The position numbers and the translations under genes were made by a program. From a virus, in IMG/VR virus record IMGVR_UViG_3300031951_001022, positions 1 through 26,963 of that record: DNA of 26,963 nt, one strand, 5' to 3'. The notes beneath the pieces were generated by a model that was not told the origin of the DNA, ran no database searches, and was given only the letters and a program-made list of their open reading frames with translations. Of the stretch, positions 10,263-26,963 are shown piece after piece. Position 1 is the stretch's first letter, and each line of letters opens with the position of its first letter.

Positions 10263-10658
10263 ATGCATGAACAAATGGTTCAAAAAAAGGAAAAGCAAGA
10301 ATTAATGGTCGGCTTCCAAAGGTCTAAAGAGATCATCAGGCACACATTTACAGACGAAGAAATCAAAGATTTAAGTCTTGGCATTGCTGACAATCTTATG
10401 AAAGCCGGTGATCTGGAAGATCAGATGAAGAAATTCAAAGAGGAAATTGATTTGAAACTTAAACCTCTTAAGAGCGAAACCGCTGAAATTCTCCGGGATA
10501 TTCGTAATGGTTTCCGTGATGCAGAACATGAAGTGTTCCTGGTTCCAGACTATGAAACCCGTACCGTTGACTTTTATGATCTTGAAGGAAACAAGATCGG
10601 TGATCGCCGCATGACTATGAGCGAGTTTCAAGGTAATCTTTTTCATCCCGTAAAATAA
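10263..10658 (+). CDS. Hypothetical helical protein (131 aa)
   Basis: First gene after the regulatory gap that follows ung. The N-terminal two thirds are strongly helical and charged (EIIRHTFTDEEIKDLSLGIADNL, then EDQMKKFKEEIDLKLKPLKSETAEILRDI) and probably form a coiled coil. A short beta region follows (HEVFLVPDYETRTVDFYDLEGNKIGDRRM). I do not recognise a catalytic motif. The layout resembles small phage accessory proteins near recombination genes. The next gene starts 4 bases after its stop, so the two are co-transcribed. Confidence 0.65.
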   Translation: MHEQMVQKKEKQELMVGFQRSKEIIRHTFTDEEIKDLSLGIADNLMKAGDLEDQMKKFKEEIDLKLKPLKSETAEILRDIRNGFRDAEHEVFLVPDYETRTVDFYDLEGNKIGDRRMTMSEFQGNLFHPVK

Positions 10659-10662
10659 TCTG

Positions 10663-11385
10663 ATGGAACCAGTAGTTAAAATAGAAACCAGCACAGGGCA
10701 AATTGATTTCAGAACAGGGGAATTACCAGCCCCACATAACAGAAAACCTCTTGAAATCGTTGGAAATATCTACGCTGCTTCGACATTTTATGAAGCTCGT
10801 AAACAGATCGTCGAAGATGTTAATTTATCCTCTCACGTAAAGTTTAGTCGGACAAACAATGACGAGAATCCTCTTACAATTCAATTAATTGTTGGAGAGC
10901 AGGAACAAGACCGTATTACAGTTACGGGAAGGCTTACGCTGAATGAAGAATACAAAAAGTTTGGTATTAACCAACCTAAAAAGTATTCTCTTGACCAGTT
11001 GCTGAAACTGATCAAACATTCCAGGCCTTTCTTTGACGACATGAATGTGCATGCTGCTTTGCTCAGAGGCTTACAGAATTTTTCTGCTAATACAGCTGTT
11101 GAGTTTACTTCTGCTAATGACTTTAAAGGAAACGTAGCGTCTAGTAAGATTCAAAAGTGTATGACCAATTTGGAGTACAAATTCAATCTTTCACTGCCTA
11201 TTTACACAGGTGCCCCAAAGTCTACTTTTGAAGTAGAAATTGAATTTGAGCCTGATAATGGAAGCATCGTAGCCTGGTTGATAAGTACTGAAGCCAAACT
11301 GTATGAAATCGAGCAGTTGGAAACCATTTACGAAATCGAAAAAGCAAAGTTTAACGATCCTTTATTAGCATTGATCGAACAATAA
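10663..11385 (+). CDS. Hypothetical phage protein (240 aa)
   Basis: A 240-residue soluble protein. It starts 4 bases after the preceding stop and ends 13 bases before the GIY-YIG gene. The middle part (SLDQLLKLIKHSRPFFDD, then a long helix ending in LLRGLQNFSANTAVEF) and a C-terminal part ending in a helical YEIEQLETIYEIEKAKF tail suggest an alpha/beta protein that may oligomerise. It contains two regions with repeated beta strands (TIQLIVGEQEQDRITVTGRL; FEVEIEFEPDNGSIVAWL). I cannot assign a family, and no motif points to an enzyme. Confidence 0.65.
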   Translation: MEPVVKIETSTGQIDFRTGELPAPHNRKPLEIVGNIYAASTFYEARKQIVEDVNLSSHVKFSRTNNDENPLTIQLIVGEQEQDRITVTGRLTLNEEYKKFGINQPKKYSLDQLLKLIKHSRPFFDDMNVHAALLRGLQNFSANTAVEFTSANDFKGNVASSKIQKCMTNLEYKFNLSLPIYTGAPKSTFEVEIEFEPDNGSIVAWLISTEAKLYEIEQLETIYEIEKAKFNDPLLALIEQ

Positions 11386-11853: not shown

Positions 11854-12549
11854 ATGTTCAAACAGTTATTCGATGTCCTCTCTGAAGGGGATACGGTTAA
11901 GATTATCGTGACTAAAAATAAGGAAACGCTAAGTACAACTGTACTGGCTGTTGTCAAGGAAGATGTAAAGGCCGCTCTTGCCCCATTAACTGCAAAAGGA
12001 ACACCGGAAGATCTTGATGAGCAGCTTATTCCGGCATTTGGTAAAACGCTGGAAGAAAGTCGTGAACTGGTCATCGAAGCCGGCGAAATGAAAAAGTCTG
12101 CCGAAGCCCTGAAGAAAGCAGAAGAAACCAAAAAGAAAGAAGATGCTAAGAAAAAGTCTACTGGAGGAAGCAATAAGTCAGATGTTTCAAACCCGGCCAT
12201 CAGCAATTCCACTAAGAAAACTGACGATAGTGACGGGGAAAGCGGGAATGATGATGTTTCAGAGGATGATGAAAACGATGATGATGATAAACCGATTGAA
12301 AACAAGGTTGAAATCAAAAAAGAAAAAGTAGAAAAAGTTGTAGAGCCCAAATACACTACGGCTCAAAAGAAAGCACTGGAAAATGTAGCTGCGCTCATGA
12401 CCAGGGCCGAGCGTGAATCTGACGTTGACATGGTGGAATTCCTGCGTAAGCAAGTCATTAGAACGCTCAATGAACAGGAGCTTCCTACTGAGAAATATGT
12501 AGAAAGCTTTGAAACCATTATTTCCAAATTTGAAATACAGGAGGCTTAA
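11854..12549 (+). CDS. PRTRC system protein E
   Basis: A 231-residue protein matching PRTRC system protein E. The N-terminal domain begins MFKQLFDVLSEGDTVKIIVT and continues with ALAPLTAKGTPEDLDEQLIPAF (about 41-62), both hallmarks of that family. Residues about 75-165 are low complexity: a Lys/Glu-rich stretch, then a Ser/Asn part, then a very acidic run (about 123-146), then basic again. The C-terminal 60 residues are helical. The N-terminal domain is thus tethered to a C-terminal helical domain by a long charged linker. PRTRC-E is always found with PRTRC-C, B and ThiF; its own biochemical role is unknown. It heads the cassette here and ends one base before PRTRC-C. Confidence 0.87.
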   Translation: MFKQLFDVLSEGDTVKIIVTKNKETLSTTVLAVVKEDVKAALAPLTAKGTPEDLDEQLIPAFGKTLEESRELVIEAGEMKKSAEALKKAEETKKKEDAKKKSTGGSNKSDVSNPAISNSTKKTDDSDGESGNDDVSEDDENDDDDKPIENKVEIKKEKVEKVVEPKYTTAQKKALENVAALMTRAERESDVDMVEFLRKQVIRTLNEQELPTEKYVESFETIISKFEIQEA

Positions 12550-12550
12550 T

Positions 12551-12757
12551 ATGGAAATCACTCAAGCCAAACGTGTGTTTATCTGGAAAGATAAAGAATA
12601 CGCAGACCCCAATCCTGCTTTTACAATTAACCAGGTCGCTGATCATTATGCCGGTCTTTACCCTGAATGGGTAACCGCTTCCATAACGCAAGGCAATGTT
12701 AAGAAAGACGGCACTATTGTTTACAATGTGAAAAGCGATTTTAAGGAAAAAGGATGA
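12551..12757 (+). CDS. PRTRC system protein C, ubiquitin-like
   Basis: A 68-residue protein; the start is the ATG one base after the PRTRC-E stop, since the longer frame from 12509 is a shadow of E. The sequence KRVFIWKDKEYADPNPAFTI ... VADHYAGLYPE is the PRTRC-C signature (FxxxGKExxDPNPxxxxxxVxxFYxxxYPE). As I recall, this family is grouped in Pfam as a prokaryotic ubiquitin-like fold (Prok_Ub). The strand-helix-strand pattern and length fit a beta-grasp, and the chain ends in Lys-Gly, as needed for activation at a C-terminal Gly without processing. Together with the E1-like ThiF and E2-like PRTRC-B genes downstream, this would be the conjugated modifier. The stop overlaps the next ATG (ATGA). 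Confidence 0.87.
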   Translation: MEITQAKRVFIWKDKEYADPNPAFTINQVADHYAGLYPEWVTASITQGNVKKDGTIVYNVKSDFKEKG

Positions 12758-12948
12758 CAGTAAAAGAACTTATGAAAATTGGGCGGGATGGTTTTCTCCC
12801 GCCCAATTTAACCCAAAAGGAAGAAAAAGAAATTGAAGATCGTGTGAGATTTTACAATAACATATACCGAATTGTATGCGACTCTCAAGAAACGGATACC
12901 AACAGGGAGCGAGCAACCGCGCCTTCAAATTTGCAAATACTTCTTTAA
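12754..12948 (+). CDS. Short ORF between PRTRC-C and the 411-aa gene, possible first half of a frameshift product
   Basis: A 64-residue frame joined to PRTRC-C by ATGA. The first 45 residues look like protein (MTVKELMKIGRDGFLPPN, then a helix KEEKEIEDRVRFYNNIYRIVC); the last 20 lie over the start of the next gene. Two things are odd. Its early codons contain a perfect 13-bp hairpin (12776-12809). Its reading frame contains the heptamer A-AAT-TTG at 12927-12933, and a -1 slip there would enter the frame of the 411-residue gene. It may therefore be a short separate protein, the N-terminal part of a fused product, or mainly a regulatory leader. I cannot choose from sequence alone. Confidence 0.5.
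   Translation: MTVKELMKIGRDGFLPPNLTQKEEKEIEDRVRFYNNIYRIVCDSQETDTNRERATAPSNLQILL
12776..12809. repeat. Perfect 13-bp inverted repeat inside the PRTRC cassette
   Basis: AAATTGGGCGGGA (12776-12788) is followed after 8 bases by its exact reverse complement (12797-12809). The stem has a GC-rich core and would be stable in RNA. Only three T residues end the plus-strand copy, so it is not a standard terminator on that strand; on the minus strand it is followed by TTTT. It begins 19 bases after the PRTRC-C stop and could limit read-through, protect the upstream mRNA end or slow ribosomes, lowering the E1/E2 genes relative to the ubiquitin-like gene. Confidence 0.8.
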
Positions 12949-14111
12949 CCGGAATAGATATTATTGAGAAAATAACAGGTAAAAAAACAACACCTGACAT
13001 ATTTGGAATTACAGCGCAGCAAGCACAATCGTTAATTAAAGTAGCCAAAAACAGAAATATCAAAATATCAGATTCGCTTCCCTCTACAACAGCAGTAATT
13101 AAAGCCATAGGAGAATTTAAATGTTTAATTGAACACGAATATATAACGCTTCAGTCGAATAACGTTACCGAGTTTATGCTGGATTTGCCCACGGCATGCA
13201 AAGAATTGAACGTAGAGGAAATATTCACGTATCATCAAAAAACAGAGGCTTTTTACATTCTTCTGTACATGATGCATTTATTGGTTACAATGGGATATGA
13301 TACTCGTTTTGAAGAATTGGACTACATCCAAGAATTTCCCCAAGCATGTGAAGAAACTGAAAAAGAGAATCATGATTACGAAGTCATGCTTTTTGACAAG
13401 TATATTGATTTTAATAACAAAGTTTCCCAGTTTATGGAATTAATCGCTAATGCCGATGAATGGAATAACGAATCATCGTATGACATGATAATGAGTAATT
13501 CAGATTTATCGGTTTTTGTCCATATCGTACTCTACTTAAAAAGCAAAGAATTTCACCTTTCAAAGTATCAGGAAGAAGAAGAAGAAGAATGGGATGGTCC
13601 GTCATGCTTTGAAATGTTTCGACTGAACTGTGGAATGGATGATGAACTTGATGAGTACAGAATACCCTGGGACCGAGAAGGGTACCGGCCTTTGATTAGG
13701 CGCAAGTTTCATTTTCCTGACGGTACGATACTTGACGAAAGTTTTGATGAACTGGAACTTGCTGGTTTTTTGTCTTGTTTTGATTTTAAGACTTTAAAAT
13801 TTGAGATTTATGACGCTGACGAATCCTACATACAATCTATCGAATCTATTATACATCTACACCTCAAAAGAAAAGTCAGATGTGTATATAGAAACATCAA
13901 AAATAACACCAACGGGTCAAATGGGATCAAGACAACCACTAAAAAAGAGTGCACTTTCAAATTTGGCAAGATTGATGATAAGCAGCAAAACGCTAATGGG
14001 GGAAATTCCGAAGAATTTAATATACTACAAAGAATTTCCTGTAAGAACTCTGCTGTGGAAAAGCCTACCCCAGTTCAAAGACCTTTCATTTCATCACAAT
14101 CTTACTACTAA
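12876..14111 (+). CDS. PRTRC cassette middle gene, unknown function (411 aa)
   Basis: A large unknown protein in the position where Bacteroidota PRTRC cassettes usually carry a poorly conserved gene between C and B. Residues 1-110 are helical (DIIEKITGKKT, TAQQAQSLIKVAKNRNIK). The middle contains long helices (EAFYILLYMMHLLVTMGYDTRFEEL) and an acidic run EEEEEEWDG (near 232-240) followed by LIRRKFHFPDGTILDESFDELELAGFLSCFD. From about residue 312 (base 13810) the frame overlaps PRTRC-B and becomes Asn/Lys/Thr-rich, which looks like a shadow of B. The functional protein may therefore end near 13810 in relatives. The start at 12876 overlaps the 64-residue ORF by 73 bases; a -1 frameshift start is an alternative. 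Function not recognised. Confidence 0.65.
   Translation: MRLSRNGYQQGASNRAFKFANTSLTGIDIIEKITGKKTTPDIFGITAQQAQSLIKVAKNRNIKISDSLPSTTAVIKAIGEFKCLIEHEYITLQSNNVTEFMLDLPTACKELNVEEIFTYHQKTEAFYILLYMMHLLVTMGYDTRFEELDYIQEFPQACEETEKENHDYEVMLFDKYIDFNNKVSQFMELIANADEWNNESSYDMIMSNSDLSVFVHIVLYLKSKEFHLSKYQEEEEEEWDGPSCFEMFRLNCGMDDELDEYRIPWDREGYRPLIRRKFHFPDGTILDESFDELELAGFLSCFDFKTLKFEIYDADESYIQSIESIIHLHLKRKVRCVYRNIKNNTNGSNGIKTTTKKECTFKFGKIDDKQQNANGGNSEEFNILQRISCKNSAVEKPTPVQRPFISSQSYY
12927..12933 (+). promoter_or_regulatory. Candidate -1 frameshift heptamer A-AAT-TTG
   Basis: The heptamer AAATTTG fits the X-XXY-YYZ slippery form and is read as AAT-TTG in the frame of the 64-residue ORF. A -1 slip moves the ribosome into the frame of the 411-residue gene, which is already open there (from 12861), 15 bases before the ORF's stop. 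I see no strong stem-loop in the bases just downstream, so an essential stimulator may be missing. In AT-rich DNA such heptamers also arise by chance. Confidence 0.3.
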
Positions 14112-14481
14112 ATCTGGTCGTTACGCTGTTCCTGGTCTGATTTGGGTTTTAGATGATAACTCTTTAGAGCTATATGCTTATAAAGTTTTTGAAGGTCTTA
14201 ATACTAAATTATTTTGCGCTCCTTTCCCTAATGTAAACGGTAGCGTTTGTTTTGGGTCTGCCAGTTCTATTCTAAAAAGAAATAATAACTCGGATTTCAA
14301 AATGTACATGGATTACATAGAAACAGTGTTCTGGAACAGCACATTTACTCACGAAGGAAAAGAATGTATTCAGAAAAAAAACTACAATTCCATGATGGAA
14401 ATGCTTAAGAACTCAGAAATAGAGTTTCCTTCTGAAGTTTTAATTCCTACAGAACAAATACTTAGAGATGTCATTGATTAA
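13810..14481 (+). CDS. PRTRC system protein B, E2-like
   Basis: A 223-residue protein matching PRTRC system protein B. The N-terminal LLYIYTSKEKSDVYIE ... GQMGSRQPL (about 13-44), the central RYAVPGLIWVLDDNSLELYAYK (104-125) and NTKLFCAPFPNVNGSVCFG (131-149) are family hallmarks. The last segment resembles the active site of ubiquitin-conjugating E2 enzymes (PNV-x-x-G-x-ICL), which puts Cys147 (codon 14248-14250) as the candidate thioester cysteine. As I recall, Pfam treats the family as a prokaryotic E2 (Prok-E2). I infer it accepts PRTRC-C from the ThiF protein. The ATG at 13810 is preferred to TTG 13801. It overlaps the preceding gene by about 300 bases and the ThiF gene by 14. Confidence 0.85.
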   Translation: MTLTNPTYNLSNLLYIYTSKEKSDVYIETSKITPTGQMGSRQPLKKSALSNLARLMISSKTLMGEIPKNLIYYKEFPVRTLLWKSLPQFKDLSFHHNLTTKSGRYAVPGLIWVLDDNSLELYAYKVFEGLNTKLFCAPFPNVNGSVCFGSASSILKRNNNSDFKMYMDYIETVFWNSTFTHEGKECIQKKNYNSMMEMLKNSEIEFPSEVLIPTEQILRDVID

Positions 14482-15274
14482 AATACCCGAGTATTTACAT
14501 AATCCTCGGCATTCAATATCAGTTGCACTGGTAGGGGCCGGGGGAAACGGTAGCGAAATGCTGACCAAGTTGGGCAGAATGGCCTATACCCTTAATGCGG
14601 TATACGGGCGTGACTTGTTTGTAACGCTAATAGATCCCGATACCGTTGAAGAACCCAATCTGGGCAGGCAGTTGTTTTGCGCCAGTGATTTAGGGCGATT
14701 TAAATCTGACGTATTAATAGAGCGGGTAAACCGGTTTTATGGTACCAACTGGGTGTCTAACCCTAAAGCAGTTGAAAAAAGTGATCTAAAAAGTAATCTT
14801 GTAATTAGCTGTACCGATAATGTTGCCAGTAGAAAATTGATTCATGACAATCTCCGTTATACTCATGATTTGTATTATCGCCATGAGTACGCTACCTATT
14901 TCTGGTTAGACATGGGTAATGATTTTACCAGTGGTAATATCATTTTATCCAGTAAGTGTAAGGAAATCAAAACTTACATGCCAGATGCCTTTGAAATATT
15001 CGGGGATATCAAAGACAATCCTTCTCGCCCAAGCTGTAGCCTTGCAGAAGCTATAGAAAAACAACACCTTTTAGTCAATCCTTTTGTAGCGGATCTTGCC
15101 AGTACCCTATTGTGGGAAGTGCTGACCAAGCCAGAAATTGACTATCAAGGGATATATTTTGACCTAAATGCCATGCGTGTAAGGAAAGTACCCGCAGGAT
15201 ATTACATCAAACCAAAGAAAAAGAAATGCAAAACACAACGTACAGAAACACCTTTGGCATTAGCCAGAGCATGA
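14468..15274 (+). CDS. PRTRC ThiF-family protein, E1-like adenylyltransferase
   Basis: A 268-residue ThiF/MoeB/E1-fold enzyme that should adenylate the C-terminal Gly of a ubiquitin-like or sulfur-carrier protein, here presumably PRTRC-C. The ATP loop is VGAGGNGSEM (22-31). The acidic end of the second strand is LIDPDTVEEPNLGRQ (54-68), with Asp56, Asn64, Arg67 and Gln68 in the E1 positions, and Lys79 follows in GRFKSD. CTDNVASR (115-122) gives the Asp117-x-x-x-x-Arg motif. SCSLAEAIEKQ (189-199) holds a conserved-looking Cys190; whether this or another Cys forms the thioester is open. The zinc-binding CxxC pairs of MoeB are absent. The ATG lies 14 bases before the PRTRC-B stop and the C-terminal 16 codons overlap the exonuclease gene. 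Confidence 0.9.
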   Translation: MSLIKIPEYLHNPRHSISVALVGAGGNGSEMLTKLGRMAYTLNAVYGRDLFVTLIDPDTVEEPNLGRQLFCASDLGRFKSDVLIERVNRFYGTNWVSNPKAVEKSDLKSNLVISCTDNVASRKLIHDNLRYTHDLYYRHEYATYFWLDMGNDFTSGNIILSSKCKEIKTYMPDAFEIFGDIKDNPSRPSCSLAEAIEKQHLLVNPFVADLASTLLWEVLTKPEIDYQGIYFDLNAMRVRKVPAGYYIKPKKKKCKTQRTETPLALARA

Positions 15275-19059: not shown

Positions 19060-19749
19060 ATGAATACATTATTTGAAATCGGGCCGAATAGAAAAGACGA
19101 ATGGTTGACACCGCCATATATAGTCAAATCGCTTGGTGAATTTGATCTGGATCCATGTTCTCCAATAAACCGACCATGGACTACCGCAAAGAATCATTAT
19201 ACGGAATTGGATAATGGATTAACCAAATCCTGGTTTGGTCGAGTTTGGTGCAATCCTCCTTATTCTGATCTGGAAAGATGGTTGAAAAAATGCAGTTATC
19301 ACCAAAATTGCATTGCTTTAACCTTTGCTAGAGTAGACACCCGACTATTTCAACACAATGTTTTTGTAAACGCGTATTCACTGTTTTTCTTTAAAGGAAG
19401 GCTTCAGTTTTATCATGTTGACGGTACTAAACCAAAAGTTAATGCAGGTGCTCCTTCCGTACTAATTTCTTTCAATGAAGAAAACGCTGAAGCTATTGAT
19501 ATTGCAAAGTTAAACGGCACACACATTCCTCTATTTTCAAATGTATTTGTAGTAGGTACAACACCGACTTGGATATCTATTGTAAAAATAGCGGTCAGAC
19601 GTAATGGCAATGAAGATTTAAAGGCATTGTACGAAATGGTAGAACGTATTGCTCCGGATAAAGTGCAAAAAAATCAACACTGGAAGGCTAAAGTCCGACA
19701 GCAGATTCAGAGAATTCGTAAATCTAATGAAGAAATATGCTTGAATTAA
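19060..19749 (+). CDS. Phage DNA N6-adenine methyltransferase (Dam type)
   Basis: A 229-residue methyltransferase of the phage DNA_N-6-adenine family, transferring a methyl group from SAM to adenine. DEWLTPPY (13-20) and FDLDPCSP (28-35) form the SAM-binding side, NGLTKSWFGRVWCNPPYSD (52-70) contains the catalytic NPPY (65-68), and a C-terminal helical part is basic (KVRQQIQRIRK). The order and spacing are typical, although the protein has about 50 residues more than the shortest members. It probably protects phage DNA from host restriction or marks it. It overlaps the PP-loop gene by 13 bases, so the two are produced together. Confidence 0.88.
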   Translation: MNTLFEIGPNRKDEWLTPPYIVKSLGEFDLDPCSPINRPWTTAKNHYTELDNGLTKSWFGRVWCNPPYSDLERWLKKCSYHQNCIALTFARVDTRLFQHNVFVNAYSLFFFKGRLQFYHVDGTKPKVNAGAPSVLISFNEENAEAIDIAKLNGTHIPLFSNVFVVGTTPTWISIVKIAVRRNGNEDLKALYEMVERIAPDKVQKNQHWKAKVRQQIQRIRKSNEEICLN

Positions 19750-20639
19750 TCAAATACGCTATTGAAAAAGGCGCTATTCTGGTAGGCAGTGTATCGGGAG
19801 GTAAAGATGGTCAGGCAATGGTAAAAACGCTGGTCAACAATAAGTTTCCCGTTACGCTGCTTATTCATGCTGATCTGGGCCGCGTAGAATGGCCCGACAG
19901 TATAAAAATGTGCAAGCGTCAAAGTGAAGAACTTAACATACCGTTAATAACAGTTACTAGACACGATGGACTGGATCTACTGGCCTACTGGCAACGTAGA
20001 ATGTACAAGTTAATGAGTAAAGGTAAACCGTTTTGGAGTAGCGCGAAACAACGTTACTGCACATCGGACCTCAAAAGAGAGCCCATAAATAAATACTTCC
20101 GATCGCTACCCAGTAATTTCATTATCAGCTGTGAAGGTATTCGTGCTGAAGAAAGCTCAGCCAGAGCTAAAAAGTCACCGTTAAGTATTCGAAAAGAAAT
20201 CACTTCTACGTATTACGATGGAATGAGTGTGATTGAAGCCATAGCGAATTTCAATCCTAAAAAGCGACTGGCGCTGACTTGGTACCCTGTATTCAACTAC
20301 ACATTGGAAGATGTTTGGTTAACCTATGGAATGACCATGACTGATGCAGAAATGGCTAGGCATGCCTACGCTTGTGACAAAAAGGTACCGGAATGGTGGC
20401 CTTTTCATCCAGCCTATGCTTTTGGCAATGATCGGGTAAGCTGCATCTTCTGCGTTCTCGGTAGCATAAACGATTTGAAAGTAGGTGCTAAACATAATCC
20501 AGATCTATTGGACGAAATGATTCACATGGAAGATGTATCTGATGCAACATTCAGGCACAATTGGTCGCTTCGCAACCTTAAAGAACCGGAAAAACCAAAG
20601 ACTGAAAAAGGTCCTTTCATGCAAGCAATCTTTGAATAA
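19737..20639 (+). CDS. PAPS-reductase-like PP-loop protein
   Basis: A 300-residue ATP-pyrophosphatase of the PAPS reductase / DndC-like superfamily. SVSGGKDGQA (18-27) is the PP-loop (SGGKDS in most members, with Gly for Ser here). RYCTSDLKREP (107-117) carries the conserved Cys-Thr-x-x-Leu-Lys block, GIRAEES (134-140) is the family's GxRxxES motif, and YPVFNYTLEDVW (183-194) is the usual C-terminal strand-helix. Cys236 and Cys239 form a CxxC (CIFC) suggesting a metal or Fe-S site. Real PAPS reductases act in sulfate assimilation; phage relatives are often linked with nucleic-acid modification. Next to a DNA methyltransferase, a DNA or nucleotide modification role is an inference. It precedes the HAD gene by 10 bases. 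Confidence 0.8.
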   Translation: MLELIKYAIEKGAILVGSVSGGKDGQAMVKTLVNNKFPVTLLIHADLGRVEWPDSIKMCKRQSEELNIPLITVTRHDGLDLLAYWQRRMYKLMSKGKPFWSSAKQRYCTSDLKREPINKYFRSLPSNFIISCEGIRAEESSARAKKSPLSIRKEITSTYYDGMSVIEAIANFNPKKRLALTWYPVFNYTLEDVWLTYGMTMTDAEMARHAYACDKKVPEWWPFHPAYAFGNDRVSCIFCVLGSINDLKVGAKHNPDLLDEMIHMEDVSDATFRHNWSLRNLKEPEKPKTEKGPFMQAIFE

Positions 20640-24307: not shown

Positions 24308-24438
24308 CGAACAGGAGGTCCAAAATTTGGCGAATTACATCCCATTTGATTAACGAGATAAGCTAGTCCAATCAAAACAGAATACTCAAATATGGTAAGT
24401 ATAACTCGGTTCCAGTTTGTTTTCTTTTTTTCAATCAT
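24304..24438 (-). CDS. Small single-pass membrane protein (44 aa)
   Basis: A short gene directly after the large late gene, coupled by ATGA (24438-24435). The first residues are Lys-rich (MIEKKKTNWNR), followed by a hydrophobic segment VILTIFEYSVLIGLAYLV that is long enough to span the membrane, then a short tail with one Cys (MGCNSPNFGPPVR). The inner-face basic start and single span are compatible with a small holin, antiholin or other phage membrane peptide; no lysis genes are visible for support. Its stop overlaps that of the convergent plus-strand gene by 4 bases. Confidence 0.65.
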   Translation of the reverse strand: MIEKKKTNWNRVILTIFEYSVLIGLAYLVNQMGCNSPNFGPPVR

Positions 24439-26963
24439 CGTAATTTGTTGTAATTGAAAGATTCTTCCATTACCTTATTATAGTTATAGATTGACGAAAA
24501 TACTGGAATGTTTTTTTCTAATTGAGTTTGACCTGGAATATTTCCATTGTCTTGACGATCACCCGTTAAAAGTCCAACTGTAATGTCCTGTAATGCAACT
24601 ACGACATTATGAGCTCTGGTAATAGCAGGAGTAGGATTCTTTGCCATTCTTAACAAGTCTACTGGGTTAAGACCTTCCATCATGTCTTCTACAAATCGTG
24701 ACATTTTCCTACCCATTGTGGTGTTCTTGTCATCTTCGTCAGGGAAAGCAGCGAGATAGGCGAGATATGCAACTAAAGTAAACGACAGATCTACCCAAAA
24801 CTTAGCAATGTTTTGCTTTTGTTCAGGAGAAAGATTTTCCCAACGATAATCTTCATTTGTACCTTCTATTTTAATACCTGCGGCTGCAAACAATTTATAC
24901 AAAGCGCTATCTTGACCTAGTGCTCCTAGTCCTGCAGCCAAGTTTTTAAAGAACGTAATTACCCTTCCTTCATGAACCCGAGCATGCCATTCCATAGCTG
25001 TTTCCATTCTTTTCACTTTAGTAACTGGATCCTCAATCTCTACCAGAACAGGCTGACCATTTTCATAGCGGGGTTTATAATAACCTGAGTTAGCATCGCT
25101 GTATTTTGACGACCAAAGGTTACTCATTTGACCAGGAAGATATTTTTTGAACTGAAGAAACAACTGCCCTAAAGCATACAATTCCGCACCCGACCGTTCA
25201 TCCTGGCGATAAGCACCATGTATCTTCTGGGAGGCCCTTTTCAATCTCATAATTTCTTTACTGGTAAGCTCAGTTACATTTTTGTAGGTTTCCCCTTCCG
25301 GAGTTTGAAATACTTCGACACCTCTTACAATACCGTCTTTCCATTTTATTTCCTTAAACTCATTTCCAAATTTATCTTTTGTAGATACTAGTTCGTAAGC
25401 ATCATATACTCTGATTTCTTCTCCGTTTTTGTTTTTTACTTTCATGTGATGAAGCATTGAAGCCAGTACTGAAATAGTACCAAAATCTTCTACAAACGAG
25501 TTCATAAACATCAGCGTAGATCCGTCTACTAGTTTATTCTTACCGGCTATCTTCTCATCAGCTCTGATCTTGTAATCATAAAAATCCGGCATATAGTTAA
25601 AATGAGAAAGCAAACGATAAAGTTTGTTATCTTCTTTCCTACCGGTAACAATATCCATCTTCATTTGCAGAAACTCTTTCTTGGCCCACCATAGATCTTC
25701 CTCTGTATAATCAATGTCCTGGTCTTTGATTCCCATTACTCGCTTAGATAGATCACCGACAATAGCGCCTTTATGTAAAAGCGTAGTGATCAATCCACCG
25801 TTGGTAGCAGCATTAGCAGCTTGCAGCCACATAGCGCCGTAAGTAGTGAAGTTCTTTGCACCTTTGATCAAACTATCAATACCGACTTTATATCGTTTAC
25901 CATCTTGGGTAAATGAATGTGTCAGATATCTAACCTTTGGCTTAGTGTCCGTGATATGAAGCATCATCTGCTTTTCCATGAAACTGTACAGGTTCTTCAT
26001 CTTTAGCGAGCCGTCCATGTTTTGTTGTTCCTTTATCCAGGCTTGTACCCCTTCTCCCAAAGCTTGAACATCGTCAAGCTCTTCCATCATGAACATATTA
26101 TTCATGAACTGAGTATAGGAACTTTCCAGATCGAAAGTGTGGTCCATATTGGCCACGATTTTTTTTATGCTACCTACATTACCCATTCCCTTTAACGGCA
26201 ACCCAACTCCTTGTTCACTCGTGGTATAGTATTCTTCCTTGTAATCTTCTAATACAGTATCCTTAAACTTCTTCCATCTTGTGCCTACATTAAAGCCAAA
26301 GCGTTCAGAATATTCATCCTTTTGCATTGGCATTCTTGGAAAAAAATCGCTTCTCAACTTTCCTGGCCGGCTCAATAAAGCAGCCTTGCTGACAAGTTCA
26401 CCTTTCTTATCACGATACACTGTTTTACTGGTTGCTGCTTGATACGCTTCATTCATTGATTCCCTAACGAATGTCAAATAATCTTTTTGAGCCTGAGTAA
26501 GCGCATCCCATTCTGTGATATCATCAGAAGTAACCAAGTAATATCCTTCTCCATGCTCACCCATCTTTCTCTTATATGCAAAGTCATAAATACCACTACC
26601 ATCACCTTTGAAGTATTGGAAACCCATACCAAAAAACGAATTCAGTGTCTTTGTATTTGGAATTCCCCTGGAACTGAAATATTCACTGGCAACCTTACTG
26701 GCAACCTGTTCATAGCGGATCTTATTGGCTTCTATTTTCAAACGAGCCTTGTTTTTTCTTTCATTCAGCAGTTTAAAAAATGCCTGGGCAAGCTTGTTTT
26801 TCGCATCATACTGGTTACCAAACCAATTTGTCAACATCGTCATGTCCTCAGTCACATTGAACATTTCCTGAGCCTTCCCATCGGTGTCCATTTCCAGAAC
26901 TTGTTTCATAATCCGTTCCCGCTTATCTTCCAGTTTAAGCTTTTGCTGCTTGATTTCAGACAT
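24435..26963 (-). CDS. Large late/virion-like protein, C-terminal 842 aa (N-terminus may lie outside window)
   Basis: The frame begins with a Met at the last three bases of the window, so the true start is probably further out. The first 100 residues are charged and helical (coiled-coil-like). The middle is alpha-rich with many aromatic and charged residues. Near 722-740 there is a hydrophobic segment FWVDLSFTLVAYLAYLAAF that could insert in a membrane, and the end has PVFSSIYNYNKVMEESFNYN. No enzyme motif is obvious. A very long protein on a strand opposite to the replication genes, ending the minus-strand operon, is typical of internal virion or ejection proteins of tailed phages infecting Bacteroidota, but this is an inference from size, strand and composition. 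Codon use is like the rest of the window. Confidence 0.75.
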   Translation of the reverse strand: MSEIKQQKLKLEDKRERIMKQVLEMDTDGKAQEMFNVTEDMTMLTNWFGNQYDAKNKLAQAFFKLLNERKNKARLKIEANKIRYEQVASKVASEYFSSRGIPNTKTLNSFFGMGFQYFKGDGSGIYDFAYKRKMGEHGEGYYLVTSDDITEWDALTQAQKDYLTFVRESMNEAYQAATSKTVYRDKKGELVSKAALLSRPGKLRSDFFPRMPMQKDEYSERFGFNVGTRWKKFKDTVLEDYKEEYYTTSEQGVGLPLKGMGNVGSIKKIVANMDHTFDLESSYTQFMNNMFMMEELDDVQALGEGVQAWIKEQQNMDGSLKMKNLYSFMEKQMMLHITDTKPKVRYLTHSFTQDGKRYKVGIDSLIKGAKNFTTYGAMWLQAANAATNGGLITTLLHKGAIVGDLSKRVMGIKDQDIDYTEEDLWWAKKEFLQMKMDIVTGRKEDNKLYRLLSHFNYMPDFYDYKIRADEKIAGKNKLVDGSTLMFMNSFVEDFGTISVLASMLHHMKVKNKNGEEIRVYDAYELVSTKDKFGNEFKEIKWKDGIVRGVEVFQTPEGETYKNVTELTSKEIMRLKRASQKIHGAYRQDERSGAELYALGQLFLQFKKYLPGQMSNLWSSKYSDANSGYYKPRYENGQPVLVEIEDPVTKVKRMETAMEWHARVHEGRVITFFKNLAAGLGALGQDSALYKLFAAAGIKIEGTNEDYRWENLSPEQKQNIAKFWVDLSFTLVAYLAYLAAFPDEDDKNTTMGRKMSRFVEDMMEGLNPVDLLRMAKNPTPAITRAHNVVVALQDITVGLLTGDRQDNGNIPGQTQLEKNIPVFSSIYNYNKVMEESFNYNKLR

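Follow-up and report, generated by a model that had tools for sequence, protein, structure and literature searches.

A reduced PRTRC cassette in a probable Bacteroidota phage, predicted to encode a ubiquitin-like conjugation pathway without a JAB peptidase

The IMG/VR virus record IMGVR_UViG_3300031951_001022, analyzed here over its full length of exactly 26,963 bases (hereafter the window), probably represents a Bacteroidota phage and carries, in a replication/recombination operon, a reduced relative of the PRTRC cassette. We consider it probable, at roughly 60%, that this cassette is functional and directs E1-E2-Ubl conjugation, with proteins of the replication fork as the most likely targets. 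All of its catalytic steps and all of its substrates we infer from sequence: the adenylation of PRTRC-C by ThiF, the transfer to PRTRC-B and the attachment to substrates are each read from homology and conserved residues.

An earlier note, made from the letters of the window, had recognized four cassette genes, PRTRC-E, C, B and ThiF. Pfam and NCBIfam profile searches confirmed all four at the positions it gave (Table 1), with matches far above chance. The PRTRC-E protein, a conserved N-terminal domain followed by a charged, low-complexity C-terminal half, scored 50.2 bits against TIGR03741 (cut-off 37.95) and 29.3 against PF19556 (cut-off 26), and ThiF scored 193.6 bits against TIGR03736 (cut-off 144.75). 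PRTRC-C, read from the ATG at 12551, has the 68 residues and terminal glycine previously described (C-terminus ...KEKG); it reached 54.4 bits against PF14454 Prok_Ub (cut-off 25), and 40.9 bits against TIGR03738, which lies under the cut-off of 45.95. Similarly, PRTRC-B matched PF14460 Prok-E2_D at 83.5 bits (cut-off 25) and TIGR03737 at 74 bits (E 1.1e-20), under the cut-off of 131.45. Its Cys147, numbered from the ATG at 13810, is present as claimed. Given that the JAB and ParB features of PRTRC were not found, we file the set as a reduced PRTRC relative rather than as full PRTRC; for ParB, this refers to the window proteins scanned with Pfam, a scan that left out several small ORFs of a record that is possibly a fragment.

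Table 1. Cassette genes and the evidence for their assignment
Feature	Coordinates	Strand	Basis
PRTRC-E	11854..12549	+	TIGR03741 and PF19556, both over cut-off
PRTRC-C, ubiquitin-like modifier, 68 aa	12551..12757	+	PF14454; predicted beta-grasp; Gly68 end
Small ORF 'X', 64 aa	12754..12948	+	Start overlaps C stop codon; same slot in relatives
Divergent PRTRC-F, alpha-helical protein	12876..14111	+	Position; F family includes L007; substitution pattern
PRTRC-B, E2-like, Cys147 and His181	13810..14481	+	PF14460; predicted E2 fold
PRTRC-ThiF, E1-like adenylating enzyme (by family)	14468..15274	+	TIGR03736; conserved residues

The earlier note had made its reading depend on a beta-grasp fold for C and on conservation of Cys147 in B, and both came out in its favor. 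The AlphaFold2 model of C (mean pLDDT 82) has the order strand-strand-helix-strand-strand, and its best structural neighbors (VIA) are, with few exceptions, ubiquitin or ubiquitin-like proteins, at modest Z scores of up to 5.6. For the model of B (pLDDT 88), the top 25 structural neighbors (VIA) are all E2 or UEV proteins, aligned over residues 54-217, again at modest Z scores (4.0-5.1). Foldseek alone returned no significant match for either model. C is thus predicted to fold as a beta-grasp modifier with a terminal glycine, and B is predicted to have an E2 fold with a catalytic-type cysteine. For B, C and E, sequence and profile searches of the PDB turned up no clear relative of known structure, the best matches of E being weak ones to designed TPR proteins; the same search with ThiF matched eukaryotic E1s only. 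Conservation follows the expected active-site residues: Cys147 of B is kept in 155 of 156 homologs and the downstream His181 in 142, the terminal glycine of C in 146/146, and in ThiF the GxGGxG motif together with D56, D58, N64, R67, Q68, K79, D117, R122 and Cys190 shows little or no variation in about 160 homologs. Profiles, predicted folds and these residues together support the E1-like, E2-like and Ubl assignments. We gauged selection by counting substitutions per codon position against L007 (L numbers are our handles for loci), the closest relative of the window; in C, E, B and ThiF the changes are concentrated at the third position, a bias as expected under purifying selection.

Two further ORFs, one in the F slot and the small ORF X, were not named in the earlier note. 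Between C and B, an ORF of at least 200 aa is present in 144 of the 146 loci that have both genes, and 140 of these 144 ORFs, including that of L007, form a single F family. The window F has no direct HMM match to TIGR03742 (PRTRC_F), and an hhalign comparison of the window and L007 F proteins with the other F proteins gave a probability of 32%; the window F is therefore placed by position, and transitively through L007. Its frame overlaps B out of frame by about 300 nucleotides (13810-14111), as it does in L007. The last 100 or so codons of the window F lack F-frame constraint, the codon-position pattern favoring B as the constrained frame, so the conserved body of F probably ends near 13811.

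The small ORF, 38-80 aa long, begins at or just past the C stop codon in 121 of the 146 loci (for example, L005 9165-9350) and has a recurring pattern at its C-terminus, LPPSxPLLF or LPxxxMPVLP; it is absent from the plasmid annotations that we looked at. The F start often lies over the small-ORF stop codon in JAB-containing loci, and usually inside the small ORF, in a different frame, in JAB-less loci. Because 22 close pairs of JAB-less loci have 201, 154 and 315 substitutions at codon positions 1, 2 and 3 of the small frame, coding is supported for the family as a whole; the window/L007 pair taken alone is uninformative on this point. X is possibly an overlooked member of the cassette. A -1 frameshift fusing X to F had been considered, because TTTTCTGA is frequently found at the X stop, with F in the -1 frame; the idea was provisionally set aside, as an in-frame F ATG lies within X in 57 of 60 JAB-less loci.

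Prok-JAB has no match anywhere in the record, in agreement with the earlier note, and the overlap of B and ThiF leaves no room for PRTRC-A (TIGR03735) between them. JAB loss is nevertheless not the peculiarity of this element that it had seemed to be, but is lineage-wide, mainly in Bacteroidota. In the tree, the window falls in a large JAB-less clade, mainly of Bacteroidota and viral loci; the branch that connects the window with this clade is only moderately supported. Among 50 contigs, Prok-JAB matched all 12 that contain JAB and exceeded its cut-off in no other. A scan of 296 Bacteroidota genomes, ten of them with PRTRC-ThiF over cut-off, detected PRTRC-A in none (positive controls were run).

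The C-terminus of C differs between the two kinds of locus. In 97 of 97 distinct JAB-less loci, C ends exactly at its glycine. Among 49 JAB-containing loci, 37 have 47-97 residues past the glycine, two have 3-4 and ten have none; a tail occurs only where a JAB gene is present. This confinement fits a role of JAB as the maturation protease, with C encoded in pre-matured form where JAB is missing. The window C likewise already ends in glycine, as the earlier note had observed. On the tree, about four changes are needed for JAB and six for the C tail, too few for the association to be established as independent of descent, and an independent-pairs test was not significant. The ten JAB-containing loci with tailless C suggest that JAB has another role besides C maturation. 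JAB-containing loci also have a ParB gene upstream of the cassette (for example, L139 1224-2921 and L171 2341-4074).

The placement of the cassette within a replication/recombination operon is supported by its neighbors in the window: a Sak4-like annealing protein, an exonuclease VIII-like protein, a DNA ligase, a UDG and a helicase, with weak matches to DnaG-zinc-ribbon and DnaB-like proteins. An integrase gene accompanies this phage-type replication set, and no terminase, portal or capsid gene was recognized within the window; the label 'temperate phage' is for this reason plausible only. A search for structural genes through other relatives of the window gave the L007 contig alone, the sole close relative found in IMG/VR and itself a fragment. 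Directly upstream of PRTRC-E lies a gene for a SegE-like GIY-YIG endonuclease (PF19835; 11399-11830), with a homolog at the same place in L007. Two genes at 10663-11385 and 10263-10658 lack Pfam matches and have homologs in L002 and L007; those of the larger gene extend to L046, L076 and L078. Its 240-aa product was considered as a divergent sliding clamp and rejected, no relation to DnaN being seen. Elsewhere in the window, genes for a Dam-type methyltransferase and a PAPS-reductase-domain protein lie side by side (19060-20639), and an 842-aa ORF on the minus strand (24435-26963) has no match in phage records, IMG/VR peptide patterns, Pfam or PHROGs.

The phage location had been presented as exceptional, a claim that does not hold. 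Candidate IMG/VR loci with a ThiF relative numbered 146 (80 of them fetched), and relatives also occurred at 117 genome loci (80 fetched) and in 400 plasmid records. The gene order E-C-F-B-(A)-ThiF is fixed over about 150 loci and is the same in annotated plasmids. Thirteen of 50 IMG/VR contigs have a terminase match on the same contig, one of the 13 under the family cut-off. A sequenced phage of Burkholderia, BgVeeders33, carries E, C, F, B, A and ThiF, most of them labeled hypothetical in its annotation. Among the papers searched, the titles and abstracts of those using the term PRTRC gave no description of a phage-borne cassette, no statement of its function and no biochemistry of any PRTRC protein.

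A first concrete indication of possible targets comes from the wider relatives of the window. Of 68 non-redundant JAB-less loci, 23 have dnaN as the next gene upstream of PRTRC-E (gap -10 to 109 nucleotides), versus 0 of 30 non-redundant JAB-containing loci; dnaN and the cassette appear to share an operon in a portion of the JAB-less lineage. The loci with dnaN in this position include L008, L010, L016, L025, L028, L030, L033, L037, L047, L050, L051, L054, L058, L060, L063, L065, L085, L111, L114, L126 and L130, among others. The copy in L008 is a three-domain DNA polymerase III beta subunit with its Pfam domains over cut-off, and the contigs of L030 and L051 also carry terminase. Past residue 100, the PRTRC-E proteins of 56 of 68 JAB-less loci contain the motif [SDTNG][LIM]F, versus 7.4 expected from shuffles, and 25 of 30 JAB-containing proteins have a similar motif at the extreme C-terminus, versus 0.3 expected, figures that somewhat overstate significance because we had already seen the sequences when we defined the motif. 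The motif is no commoner next to dnaN than elsewhere. Some copies (QNSLF, QTSLF, TLDLF) resemble clamp-binding peptides. The motif is absent from E of the window and of L007, and no dnaN was recognized in the window; this evidence therefore applies to the family as a whole rather than to the window itself.

In the pathway that we propose, ThiF would adenylate the C-terminal Gly68 of C, possibly picking C up on its Cys190, and C would pass on to Cys147 of B. B would then attach C to target proteins, aided by E and F and possibly by X. JAB would not be needed for maturation, since C is encoded ending at its glycine. With no dedicated deconjugase seen, the mark may be long-lived, or may be removed by a host enzyme. 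Replication-fork proteins would be the likeliest substrates, given the operon context in the window and the dnaN link in relatives. A more specific form of this proposal has E docking on the bacterial-type sliding clamp through the clamp-binding-like motif (QxSLF/TLDLF), with C conjugated to the clamp itself or to clamp-bound proteins; the window would then be a divergent member with a different docking partner. We put this forward tentatively, as possible but on balance rather unlikely; it would make PRTRC a bacterial and phage counterpart of the modification of PCNA by SUMO and ubiquitin.

The same conjugation chemistry might instead be aimed at host defense or regulatory proteins, in counter-defense or host takeover. 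The cassette is carried by phages, plasmids and integrated elements alike, and the bacterial Ubl pathways CBASS Cap2, Bil and Bub are tied to phage immunity or stress response (PMC10097602, PMC13373217). The recurrent neighbors, however, are dnaN in JAB-less loci and ParB in the annotated JAB-containing plasmid, and PADLOC, run on the cassette, returned generic E1-E2 matches to ThiF alone and none to B, E or F, so we regard such targets as unlikely. Still less likely, in our judgment, is a sulfur-carrier pathway of the ThiS/ThiF kind, in which C would end as a thiocarboxylate and a small molecule, RNA or DNA would be modified in place of proteins. The E1 does belong to the ThiF superfamily, and the PAPS-reductase-domain gene lies about 4.5 kb downstream of the cassette, but a protein of predicted E2 fold with an almost invariant cysteine is co-conserved, no sulfurtransferase is among the recurrent neighbor clusters examined, and PMC1779556 describes no E2-like partner for ThiS/MoaD pathways.

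Two other explanations were considered. The window could have been wrongly classed as viral and belong instead to a plasmid or an integrative element with an ordinary plasmid PRTRC, which would be compatible with the conjugation mechanism. The lack of recognized terminase, portal and capsid genes, the abundance of PRTRC on plasmids (400 records) and the fragmentary state of the only close IMG/VR relative are all consistent with this. We nonetheless think it improbable, since the window is listed as a virus record and contains phage-type replication genes and an integrase, and since other PRTRC contigs carry terminases and BgVeeders33 is a sequenced phage. That the cassette is a non-functional passenger of the phage might be argued from the scores of B and C under the NCBIfam cut-offs and from the high divergence of F, yet the four core ORFs are intact, their catalytic residues are kept and substitutions relative to L007 fall mostly at third codon positions; this we consider very improbable indeed.

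If the conjugation reading with replication-fork targets is true, Bacteroidota phages and plasmids employ a minimal, JAB-less E1-E2-Ubl pathway of about six genes, which for that reason would be an unusually simple system to reconstitute, and ubiquitin-like tagging would be connected to replication outside eukaryotes. The recurring dnaN neighbor and the conserved E motif make the question of substrates specific and testable.

Among known systems, CBASS Cap2/Cap3, Bil and Bub share with the window the bacterial E1-E2(-Ubl) logic (PMC10097602, PMC11354881, PMC13373217). Bil has a JAB peptidase, BilC (PMC11354881), unlike the window, whose E2 is of the Prok-E2_D family. Closer is operon type 6d of Iyer, Burroughs and Aravind (2006), for which Bacteroides thetaiotaomicron is listed (PMC1779556): like the window, it has a Ub-like protein with a terminal glycine, an E1-like protein, an E2-like protein with a cysteine and a downstream histidine, and a rapidly diverging alpha-helical protein, the last represented in the window by F, on position only. 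Type 6d was described with an adjacent JAB protein (PMC1779556), which the window lacks. Plasmid PRTRC (NCBIfam; for example, Hydrogenophaga pBPS33-1) has E, C, F, B and ThiF in the same order and on the same strand, with a Ubl of conserved GTKG-type end, an E2-like B and an E1-like ThiF. In pBPS33-1, PRTRC-A (JAB) lies between B and ThiF and PRTRC-ParB upstream, and in loci related to it C has a tail after its glycine; the window has none of the three. BgVeeders33 (OK665841) resembles the window in bearing the cassette on a phage, with a small ORF between C and F, and differs in having the full version, with JAB and a 62-residue C tail. The plasmids of Parabacteroides distasonis (NZ_OY725769) and Tunicatimonas pelagia (NZ_CP120684) share the arrangement E-C-(F)-(B)-ThiF, in which JAB is not annotated and would not fit; their cassettes lie in a plasmid context, whereas that of the window lies in a phage replication operon.
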